This document shows, one piece after another, positions 1-9,945 of a stretch of 64,000 bases of DNA. The notes below the pieces were generated by a model. The model made no database searches. It was not told the DNA's origin and was given only the letters and a program-made list of their open reading frames with translations. This stretch comes from Clavulina sp. PMI_390 (taxonomy: Eukaryota; Basidiomycota; Agaricomycetes; Cantharellales; Hydnaceae). Positions within the stretch are counted from its first letter, which is position 1; every line of letters begins with the position of its first letter. Location of the stretch: assembly GCA_015039315.1 (NCBI GenBank), contig WIDE01000064.1:90138-154137 (forward strand), read 5' to 3'. The position numbers and the translations under genes were made by a program.

Positions 1-2377
1 TCTCGCTGGCAGAATTCACCAGCTCTGGAGCAACATAGCGGCGATGCCCACCTTCCTGGATATTGGTAGCAGTCCTCGTGATTTCATGGCGGATTCGGCT
101 GAGGCCAAAGTCACAAAGCATTGCTTCACCGGTTGCAGTCACGAGAACATTCTCCTGACCGCGTGAGATTATATCAGAACCGACACTTGTGCAGTGAGAA
201 GAAAGCTCTAGGACATACAGGATGAATATCTCCATGGATCACAGGTGGGTCGCGCCCATGCATATACTCGATTCCAGCCACCGCTCCATGTAGCTGATGA
301 AGACAAGACGATTAGTAACAGCCACTACTGATCTACTAACTGACGCAAGCATACAATTTTCAAGGTGACGGGCATGAGATCTCCTCTGCCCTCATCATGA
401 ACACTTCGTAAGAAGTGCAGCGATGAAGCACTTCCAAATGGAGAAGAAAGGCATGATCGGCTCGAGTATTGGTTTTCGACGAGAGGAAGTAGAGTCATGA
501 ATGAGCCACGATGGAAAAAAACTCCGTAGAGCCGCAAGATATTCCCGTGTGAAAGTAGATAATGGGTGAGTGCTTCACGGCATGCAGTCTTTAGGGCGGG
601 AAAGTGACTTGGTAGACCTGAGGTTATCAAATTGATTGAACATACCGCTTTTGTATATGTCACTGTCAATTTGGCCTTCCTCACCGCCATTGGCCAACTC
701 CATCCGCCAATATCCCGTTTGCATCGAAAAACACGCGCTTCCGAACCGTTTCCGAGGGCATCAAATGTGTCCATAGTAATTTCGTTCTCTGGTACCCAGA
801 GGGACAAAGGTAACTCCCCTGAAGCAGATGATATATCCTGAATAAGGCGGAGCGTGAGGTTGGGGATGAGATTGTGGTCTCGGTCTCCCTGGAAAACAGA
901 GGGTGGTTAGTCGGGGCTGTCGACAGTAAAAAAAATAAAGCGCACAATAAGACGATCGAGAAACTCGGCGGCCTCGGATCCTCTCAGATCAAGGAGCATG
1001 GTGCGTGAGGCAGAATACCTATCATCTGAAGCTATCCTTTCTGAGAATGCTCTCAGATCACGATCGCTTGACGTTGCTAATAAAGAGAATGCCTAATACC
1101 AGGAACCAAAGCTGAGGAGCAATCTATGTAGGAAGTATAGCCGATTTGGGGCTTACAGCGCGAGGAATACTAAGACGATTTTCCAATTGAATCCCGACTC
1201 TGGCGATACTGCCTGTCCTTGAGATGCAGACAAAGTGGTTATCACTTCCATAGCAAGCTGCAAGGTTCTCGAGTGAATAATCTAGTATTTTTTCCCATTG
1301 GTTTGACCCTGAATCCAAGTGGTAGGCAGTGGCTCGTGCATTAGAGTACAAGGTGGATGGGGGATGAATGCAGGCGACAACACGTGCACAGGGAGATAAG
1401 ATCGCCAATGGCCTCCCATCAACGAGGGTAATTGGAGCAGACACTCTCGTTAAGTGGGGTTCAATGTCCAACAAATGTATCTGTGACAACACGAATAGGT
1501 TAAACCGGCTAGGTTTGATTTTTGATTTGTGATGCGCATTACTCACCGCGAATCTGAAGAGAGACTTGTAATTTGTAATGATCAAAGCGTGATCAGTCGG
1601 GCCACCAAAGTTCAGGAATGCCGGAGCACTATAACTATACATGGAACGAATTCGGATGCCCATGTTGTTATAAACGTGCACTTGAATCAGTCCTGAGTGA
1701 TCAGGACTGAATACGGCAAAGTAGAGATCATTGGGAGTTGATACAACATCAACTCTATAGAGGTTGTCGAGTTCATTGATAGGAAACAAGAAGATGGGGA
1801 TGTTTGGACCCCCTTCTGAAGAAATCTCCCACTTGAATAGGCTTGATGAAACCACAATCACCAGGCAGGTTGGTCGCAGCCATTTCCAGAACAAGATGGC
1901 GGCGTTGAACTCAAATTCACTAACTATAGGTGGATTCTGTCGCTGTCCCCAGAGGTTTCGGTCAGACTGCATTTGATAGACCCGGATCCCGGTCCTCGCT
2001 GGAGTTTCTCTGTCAGCGGATGTTAAACCTAAAGAAAGCTCGCTTACTCTTGGTAGCCAAGTATTGGTGGGTGGGAGAGTACAAAGCAGCATCAACCCTA
2101 GTAGCTCCCAGCCAGCCAGGCCGAATAGTTACTGGTGGTTGACTTGGTCGAAATATGACAATTTTTTGCGCTTGAGTATCATCCACATCGACCAGTGTGC
2201 CGTCGTATGCTATCATAGGAGCCTTGGTCGCACGGATAAGCATGTTTGAGAGGTCAAAAAGGGTTCATGGGGACAGAGACACACCGAGAGGTCATCTTGT
2301 GGGATAGGCAGGCCAGCATCCGTAATGTTGCCAAGATGAGTGATCTCAAACGGCAGATTGTCATTTGGAGTGGACAT
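1..2377 (-). pseudogene. Clathrin-propeller/kinase fusion, left copy, frameshifted and cut by the window start
   Basis: Left paralogue of the intact gene at 7255-9945. The same exons can be followed: 2377-2048, 1998-1547, 1480-1157, 1092-946, 888-646, 588-355, 293-219 and 154 to the edge. Exons 3-7 have lengths that keep frame, and exons 4-7 match the other copy base for base in length. Exon 1 is one base short (330 where 331 is expected). The missing base lies near 2265, where this copy reads gggttcat and the other gggttccat, so the N-terminal frame breaks after about 37 codons. Propeller and kinase are otherwise open: P-loop GNGSEARV, catalytic loop HGDIHPEN and CDFGLSRI are present. Translation could start at the in-frame ATG at 2243, giving a propeller without its first blade. 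The end of the kinase lies outside the window. A sequencing error at one base would also explain the break. Confidence 0.7.
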
Positions 2378-7254: not shown

Positions 7255-9945
7255 TCAGACATGAGGTCCCACTCTTAAAATATCCTCCGTAGAGTGAACG
7301 CGTCTGAGAACATCCGCAGCCGTAGGTCGAGTGGCAGGTTTGTGTGCCCACATTTCCTTAATAAGGACCCAAATAGCTGCTTGAATACGACTATCCGCCA
7401 AAATGGTACTAGTTTTTGGGCGACCAGGACGACGGCCATTGTTGATCTGATGCATCGCATCATAGTCCCGAAGATTCTGAAAAGGAACATCCAAGGTGAT
7501 GAGGGAGTAAAAAGTCATCCCCAAGCTATAGATATCACTCGACTTTGTGGTGCGGAACCTCTCGCTGGCAGAATTCACCAGCTCTGGAGCAACATAGCGG
7601 CGATGCCCACCCTCCAGGATATTGGTAGCAGTCCTCGTGACGTCATGGTGGATTCGACTGAGACCAAAGTCGCAAAGCATTGCTTCGCCAGTAGCAGTCA
7701 CAAGAACATTCTCCTGAACACGTTAGATTATATCAGAATCAGCCCTTAGGGAGTGAAAAGTGAGCTCTGGGACATACAGGATGAATATCTCCATGGATCA
7801 CAGGTGGGTCGCGCCCATGCATATACTCGATTCCAGCCGTCGCTCCATGTAGCTAATGAAGACAAGATGATTAGCAACAGCTGCCAATGAACTGCCAACT
7901 GGCGCAAGCATACAATTTTCAAGGTCACAGACGTGAGATCTCCTCTCTCCTCCTCATGAACACTTCGTAGAAAGTGCAGTGATGAAGCGCTTGGAGATGG
8001 GGAAGAAATGCATGATCGGCTCGAGTATTGGTTCTCGACGAGAGGGAGCAGAGTCATGAACGAGCCACGATGGAAAAAAACTCCGTGGAGCCGCAAGATA
8101 TTCCCATGGGAAAGTAGGTAGTGGGTGAGTGCTTCACGGCATGCAGTCTGAGACAAGGAAGTGACTTGGTAGACCGGAGGTTATCGAATTAACTGAACAT
8201 ACCGCTCTTGTATATGTTACTGTAAATGTGGCCTTCCTTACCGCCATTGGCCACCTCCATCCGTCAATATACCGTTCGCACCGAAAAACACGCGCCTCTC
8301 CACCGTGTCCGAGGTCACCAAATGGGTCAACAGTAACTTCGTTCTCTGGTACCCAGAGCGACAAAGGTAACTCCTCTGAAGCAGATGATATATCCTGGAT
8401 GAGACGGAGCGTGGGGCTGGGGATGAAATTGTGGTCTCGGTCTCCCTGGAAAAGAGAAGTAATCAATTGGGGCTATTGAGATGAAAAAAAAAAATGAAAT
8501 GCACAATGAGACGATCGAGTAAATTGGCGGCCTTGGGTCCTCTCAGAGTAAGGAGCATCTTGCGTGGGGCAGAATACTTAGGCTCTGAAGCTATCCTTTC
8601 TGAGAAAGTTGCCAGATCACGATCGCTTAATGTTGCTAATAAAGTGGATGCCTAATTCCAAGAACCAAAGATGAGGAGCAATAGGAAGTATAGCTGATTT
8701 GGGGCTTACAGCGCGAGGTATCCTAAGAAGATCCTCCAATTCAATCCTAACTCTAGCGATACTGCCTGTCCTTGAGATGCAGACAAAGTGGTTGTCACTT
8801 ACATAACAAGCCGCAAGTTTCCCGATGGTATATAGTGGATAATCTAGTATTTGGGACCACTGGTTTGACCCTGAATCCAGGTGGAAGGCAATGGCTAGTG
8901 CTTGAGAAAAGACGGACGAGGAAAGAATGCAGGCGAAAACACGTGCACAGGGAGATAAGATTGCCATTGGCATCCCATCAACAAGGGTGATTGGAGCAGG
9001 CACGTTTGTTAAGTGGGATTCAATGCCCACTAAGCATATCTGTGATAACATCAATAGGGCAAACTGCCTGGATTTTTTTTTTTTTTTTTTTTAATTCGTG
9101 AGGCGCATTACTCACCTTGACTACCAAGAGAGGGTATAGATTTGTGATGAGGAGGGCATACTTGGTCGGGCTACCAAGATTCAGGAATGCCAGAGCTCTG
9201 TACCCGTATGTCGAATAAATTAGGGCGCCATTGTTGTCAAAAACACTCAATCCACCACTTCCTGAGGGATTAAGGCTGGATATGGCAAAGTAGAGATCAT
9301 CGGGAGTCGATACAACATCAAGTCGTGAGGATAAATCGACAGATTCATCGAGAGGAAATAAGAGGATGGGGCTAGTTGGATTCCCTTGGGAAGAAATCTC
9401 ACACTTATATAGATATGATCCCGCGACAGTCACCAGGCAGGTCGGTCGCAGCCATTTGAAAAAAATGATTCGATGGGAGTAGTCATATTCGCCAACTAAA
9501 GGTGGTGGTAGTCGCTCTCCCCAGAGGTTTCGGTCAGACGGCATTTGATAGACTTGGATCTTGGTCTCCGCTAGAGTTTCAATCAGGGGATGTTAAATGG
9601 GGAGGAATCTCGCTTACTCCTGGTGGCCAAGCATCTGTGTTGAGGAGAGTAGACCGCGGCATCGATTCCCGTAGCGCCTCTCCAGCGAGGTCGAACGACT
9701 AATGGCAACTGGCCGGGTCGGAATATAACAATCCTGAGCACTCGATTTTTATCCACCTTGACTAGTGTACCGTCGTTCGCTATCCTAGGAGCCTTGATTT
9801 GACGTGTCAGCATATTTGAGAGGTCGAAAAGGGTTCCATAGGGATAGAGACACACCGAGAAGTCATCTAGTGCGATAGGTAGGCCAACATCCGTGATGTT
9901 GCCAAGATGAGTGATCTCGAACGGCGGCCAACCGTAATATGACAT
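7255..9945 (-). CDS. Clathrin-heavy-chain-like propeller fused to a protein kinase
   Basis: Eight exons: 9945-9618, 9570-9116, 9039-8710, 8651-8505, 8445-8203, 8147-7914, 7852-7778, 7713-7255. Together they encode 756 residues in frame, and every intron but the first is phase 0. Residues 1 to about 420 resemble the seven-blade N-terminal propeller of clathrin heavy chain: a start like PFEITHLGNIT, then IQVYQM, FFKWLRPTCLVTVAGSYLY and a last blade SRTGSIARVRIELEDLLRIP. Next comes a stretch like the clathrin linker (LSDRDLATFSERIA). Exon 5 opens directly into a kinase: P-loop GHGGEARV, beta-3 lysine in AVRK, catalytic loop HGDIHPEN, CDFGLSRI and YVAPELV. The usual HRD arginine is Gly, and the catalytic-loop Lys is His, so activity is uncertain. 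A kinase carried on a cargo- or adaptor-binding propeller could act at coated membranes; that is inference. There is no transmembrane segment. Confidence 0.8.

Follow-up and report, generated by a model that had tools for sequence, protein, structure and literature searches.

A 64,000-nucleotide stretch of the genome of Clavulina sp. PMI_390, called the window in the following, carries a minus-strand gene between positions 9945 and 7255 in which a clathrin-like propeller appears to precede a protein kinase. The locus raises the question whether the two halves belong to one gene, from where the propeller was acquired and at which point it was joined to the kinase, and what the resulting protein may recognize.

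Gene model, gene copies and kinase domain

The in-frame protein of 756 residues that the initial annotation had assembled from eight exons was reproduced by translation of the joined exons, but exon 1 as drawn there still contains the segment 9855-9793 (GTGTGT..AAG), which is also spliced out in the NCBI protein P0001. A phase-0 intron occupies the same alignment column in 6/6 paralog models, and exon 1 of the initial annotation had therefore retained an intron. After correction, the gene copy at this locus, here designated P0, encodes 735 aa in nine exons separated by eight introns (Table 1). P0001 (612 aa, Clavulina sp. PMI_390), which bears the name 'kinase-like protein', covers propeller and kinase and uses the intron 8504-8446, but compared to the 756-residue model it lacks exon 9039-8710, 21 residues of exon 1 and, in the beta-3 region of the kinase N-lobe, a further 13 residues. 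Since this exon and the 13 residues are conserved across the other copies in the seven-copy alignment, their omission from P0001 looks like prediction errors or isoforms; given these differences, the splicing of P0 shown here is a predicted one.

Table 1. Positions of the fusion gene P0, its further copies and the true clathrin heavy chain gene (window coordinates unless a contig is named).
Feature	Position	Strand	Remark
Exon 1	9856..9945	-	start codon; first propeller strands
Intron 1	9793..9855	-	63 nt, phase 0; column shared with the first intron of true clathrin
Exon 2	9618..9792	-	propeller
Exon 3	9116..9570	-	propeller; FFKWL aligned to clathrin FWKWI
Exon 4	8710..9039	-	propeller end; omitted in the NCBI model, kept in 6/6 paralog models
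Intron	8652..8709	-	phase 0, residue 350; most likely the fusion border
Exon 5	8505..8651	-	linker of 49 aa; second half most likely kinase-derived
Intron	8446..8504	-	junction of the initial annotation; most likely ancestral in the kinase family
Exon 6	8203..8445	-	kinase N-lobe, glycine loop, beta-3 xAxR
Exon 7	7914..8147	-	kinase alpha-C to hinge and insert
Exon 8	7778..7852	-	kinase up to the HGD loop
Exon 9	7255..7713	-	C-lobe of the kinase (DFG and APE motifs); stop codon
PB, second fusion copy	1..2377 (C263:92514 to 90138)	-	452/623 aligned residues identical to P0
Copies PA, PB, P0	contig C263		spliced alignment, one gene per place
Copies PC, PD, PE, PF	contig C3		spliced alignment, one gene per place
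True clathrin heavy chain gene	C173:360-366k		genome search, spliced model

Further copies were located by genome searches with the P0 propeller and the P0 kinase. Propeller pieces were confined to two clusters, each lying beside kinase pieces, at about 68, 91 and 98 kb of C263 and at about 18, 23, 29 and 33 kb of C3, and a second propeller query of the genome added no copy (one weak match on contig C17, E 0.025). The genome contains seven copies, two of them inside the window, each encoding in a single reading frame a propeller of about 350 residues and, downstream of it, a TKL-type kinase. The paralog models were generated by script as spliced alignments fitted to the P0 protein. Eight introns were obtained per copy, and their alignment columns and phases agree, the exceptions being the third intron in PC (where it is in phase 2) and in PD and the second intron in PF, which is displaced by an insertion. 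Poor splice sites are present in some of the models, namely the donors GTCTCC in PA, GTTGAC in PC and GCAAGC in PD, and the 3′ end of PB is lost in a scaffold gap immediately outside the window (N at C263:88501-90137). A second NCBI protein, P0002 (336 aa), is placed by its letters in copy PA and joins the propeller end to the kinase N-lobe. At the level of sequence, gene structure and recurrence of the fusion are established: the fusion is real, recurring in all seven copies beyond what chance or a mis-join would give.

The kinase half, for which P-loop, DFG and APE motifs had been claimed, was confirmed. In P0 the P-loop LGHGGEARVF and the motifs HGD, DFG and APE are present, and residues 464-741 of the 756-aa model match PF00069 (Pkinase) with E 7.8e-29, besides a match to PF07714 with E 1.5e-23. 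The closest PDB relatives by sequence, among the best 60 of 1026 matches, are RIPK2 (top), SOBIR1 and TNNI3K. The catalytic Asp, Asn and DFG (HGD, N, DFG) are retained in 7/7 fused copies; in place of the beta-3 lysine (VAIK), all 19 kinases in the alignment, fused or not, carry arginine (xAxR, VVVRE), the position being assigned by eye from the motif (window:8203-8445; loci L063-L073, L075 and L076). With arginine at this position throughout, although HGD, Asn and DFG are kept, kinase activity is therefore uncertain, and these kinases may be catalytically unusual or signal in an unconventional manner. Throughout the whole genome, at least 131 exon matches to the P0 kinase at E 1e-6 or better were counted, fused copies included, and by these matches there is a large predicted expansion of TKL-like kinases in Clavulina.

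Descent of the propeller and position of the fusion border

The N-terminal 420 residues had been assigned to the clathrin terminal domain. Homology to this domain was supported by profile comparison and by introns, but the similarity stops at about residue 345. When the profile of all seven propellers was compared to the PDB, 18/18 matches (E up to 10) were clathrin heavy chain, the best with E 3e-10. Alignment of the same seven-copy profile to the terminal domains of Clavulina's own and rat clathrin with hhalign yielded a probability of 95.3 and E 2.3e-8 over 274 columns (clathrin residues 48-339), the first 50 residues falling outside the alignment. Single sequences gave no such signal: no Pfam clathrin model matched the propeller of any of the seven copies searched singly, and a PDB search with the P0 propeller alone returned no clathrin match. 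Ectonucleotide pyrophosphatase, which appeared in the latter search with E 0.48 and worse, was rejected as a relative, these matches being at chance level. With regard to a seven-bladed propeller fold, an AlphaFold2 prediction for P0001 alone reached a pLDDT of 32. The clathrin leg repeat (PF00637) has seven matches in the genome, all of them in the true clathrin gene on C173, and none in the P0 protein.

The introns were compared on a protein alignment that had been built without regard to them. In its spliced model the true clathrin gene has its first three introns at residues 27, 82.3 and 232 with phases 0, 1 and 0, corresponding to columns 36, 95 and 277, and exactly the same columns and phases were found in P0, PA, PB and PE. 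PC and PD share introns 1 and 2 with clathrin and PF shares intron 1, while intron 3 of these three copies lies off the clathrin column; counted over all copies, the clathrin column is shared by 7/7 for intron 1, by 6/7 for intron 2 (its phase by 7/7) and by 4/7 for intron 3. A rough calculation that assumes about 1,200 coding bases with five introns puts the probability that three introns coincide exactly by chance at around one in a million or lower. On account of the columns and phases shared with the true clathrin gene, the propeller is concluded to descend from clathrin, a descent established at sequence level in which the introns were most likely carried along.

The initial annotation had placed the join of the two domains at the phase-0 intron between 8505 and 8445. 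This placement was not upheld, since a phase-0 intron is also present there in 12 of 13 kinase models that lack the propeller and cross the place. For this survey 23 loci were given, of which 15 exceeded the score cut and 13 crossed the position of intron 8504-8446, L074 and L057 starting after it; the exception is L068, a weak model with a score of 156. A sister kinase without propeller, L035 (C263:84387-85735), has the same intron in both alignments, out of four, that extend that far. Furthermore, a profile of the 12 intron-bearing models aligns upstream of the intron in 5/7 fused copies, in P0 from residue 381, and starts after it in PC and PE. As the clathrin similarity ends at about residue 345 and kinase-type sequence begins by residue 381, the border most likely lies at the intron 8709-8652 or just after it, within the first part of exon 5. 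A phase-0 shuffling event, one intron upstream of the originally proposed junction, is plausible. For a small and weak profile of exon 5, the best match was the sister kinase (E 0.011, search space 20), and the clathrin linker was not listed. An origin of intron 8504-8446 from clathrin intron 4, which has the same phase and lies five columns off, was considered less simple because the propeller-less kinases share the intron.

In a midpoint-rooted tree of 19 kinases, from which L069 had been removed by the motif and length filter and L068 and L074 had been left out, the seven fused copies and the sister L035, a long branch, were grouped with a support of 100/100, and the seven fused copies alone with a moderate support of 91/89. 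L035 is located between PA and PB, no propeller match adjoins it, and it may mark the state before the fusion.

Taken as a whole, we consider it highly probable that the locus represents a clathrin propeller-kinase fusion gene formed from a duplicated clathrin 5′ part and a TKL-like kinase and multiplied afterwards. A duplicate of the 5′ region of the gene for clathrin heavy chain, which codes for the propeller of the terminal domain, would have retained its introns and been fused to one of the many TKL-like kinases of this fungus; the fusion would most likely have taken place a single time, at a phase-0 intron or close to one. Multiplication of the fused gene would have led to at least seven copies in the two clusters on C263 and C3, in which the propeller would serve as a recognition module that either recruits a ligand for the kinase or directs the kinase to its ligand.

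Ligands of the propeller and alternative explanations

A kinase targeted to clathrin-box peptides or coated membranes had been suggested by the initial annotation, the propeller docking on adaptor peptides in the manner of the true terminal domain and thereby bringing the kinase to the coat. In the available portions of PMC5182127 and PMC11543927, clathrin-box peptide binding by clathrin is attributed to residues of the type Q89, F91, K96 and K98. The groove residues were mapped via rat numbering and the alignment of clathrin and propellers. All four are retained in the true clathrin of Clavulina and largely replaced in the seven copies, position 89 being Gln in P0, Arg in five copies and Asn in one, position 96 Asp in six and Ala in one, and position 98 Asn, Asp, Gly or Glu. 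The positions of the W-box, arrestin-box and Royle-box are mostly changed too, in regions where the alignment is less sure. Besides the clathrin descent itself, a coat function would be favored by the hydrophobic residue at position I80 (Leu in 7/7), by the aromatic residue at position 91 (Tyr in five copies, Cys in two) and by the Gln kept in P0. In view of the replaced groove, canonical clathrin-box peptide binding by the propeller is not supported by the sequences, and a kinase of the clathrin coat appears unlikely.

In five copy pairs, dN of the propeller exceeded dN of the kinase 2.3- to 3.9-fold, a pattern that we interpret as a recognition module exposed to shifting demands and attached to a kinase that stays conserved. 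Given the largely altered groove and the faster change of the propeller relative to the kinase, we think that clathrin's adaptor peptides would no longer be the main ligands of the propeller and that binding may have diverged among the copies. A more far-reaching variant would be a fungal family of receptor-like proteins with a built-in mimic of clathrin, in which the propeller senses clathrin-binding molecules or new ligands and reports via the beta-3-arginine TKL-like kinase, the clustered copies, with their fast-changing propeller and conserved kinase, recognizing other organisms or strains; this variant is regarded as quite improbable.

A non-functional expansion, with fused copies drifting to pseudogenes, would agree with the fast evolution of the propeller, the missing beta-3 lysine, the poor splice sites mentioned above and a remnant of a kinase C-lobe beside PC (L031, C3:17166-16634), whose HGD loop is not intact and which is probably a decayed copy. 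However, dN/dS was below 1 in 5/5 pairs, with 0.24-0.62 for the propeller and 0.11-0.28 for the kinase (rough values, several dS exceeding 1), the beta-3 arginine is common to the aligned propeller-less kinases, and all seven copy models read without a stop, although the script permits no frameshift and none could therefore appear. Decay of the family is thus very improbable. One linker comparison gave a dN/dS of 1.118 (P0 versus PB, 90 codons).

That a propeller gene and a neighboring kinase gene were wrongly joined by the initial annotation is exceedingly improbable, because, in spite of a weak donor in P0 (GTGCAT at 8504) and of several exons in which the NCBI model disagrees, both halves are connected in frame via introns at matching places in 7/7 copies, P0001 and P0002 join them too, the P0 kinase frame has no ATG from its opening at 8472 to the beta-3 strand, and the linking region is conserved between copies with 27-76% identity.

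Comparison with known systems

The initial annotation had stated that no such architecture was known, and in line with this neither the propeller-kinase architecture nor Clavulina kinases were found in the open-licence literature. Protein database searches, in each of which about 8,000 candidates of limited length were scored, returned only P0001 for the P0 propeller, P0001 and P0002 (both from Clavulina sp. PMI_390) for the seven-copy profile, and no match for the PE propeller. Relatives in other species were not found among these candidates, whose restricted number and length make this weak evidence of absence; true clathrin heavy chains exceed the candidate length. The fusion is a new architecture within a known kind of kinase, and it is a gene family instead of a one-off.

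To our knowledge, the clathrin terminal domain is known solely as part of the coat protein. A heritable family carrying this domain with its introns ahead of a kinase would represent a clear case in which part of the endocytic coat has been reused as a kinase recognition module. It would make it possible to test how specificity arises in the large, unexplained expansions of TKL-like kinases in mushrooms, and would provide a natural set of propeller variants in which most of the adaptor groove is lost. With the clathrin terminal domain the Clavulina proteins share the propeller sequence, the F[WF]KW motif and the column and phase of the first three introns; unlike the clathrin heavy chain, they have no leg repeats, most of their adaptor-groove residues are replaced, and the propeller is followed by a kinase.

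TKL and FslK kinases are described as expanded in Agaricomycetes in the accessible parts of PMC2838846 and PMC3937382, and the word clathrin is absent from their main texts. A TKL-like kinase at large copy number is common to these expansions and to Clavulina. Propeller-less relatives in Clavulina, e.g. L067 and L070, open with an acidic stretch instead of a propeller. The nearest named counterpart, judged from the accessible part of the source, is CLTC-ALK, a human tumour fusion of clathrin heavy chain and the ALK kinase which is listed under triskelion assembly motifs (PMC3407651). Both combine a part of the clathrin heavy chain with a kinase, but the Clavulina gene is inherited, multi-copy and fungal and contains the propeller only.

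In fungal NOD-like receptors with WD40 propellers, a fast-changing recognition module is placed on a conserved signalling module in repeated copies. By analogy, a comparable combination of modules in repeated copies may be present in the Clavulina family, which differs in that a NOD domain is not among the Pfam matches of the P0 protein and in that its propeller is of clathrin descent.
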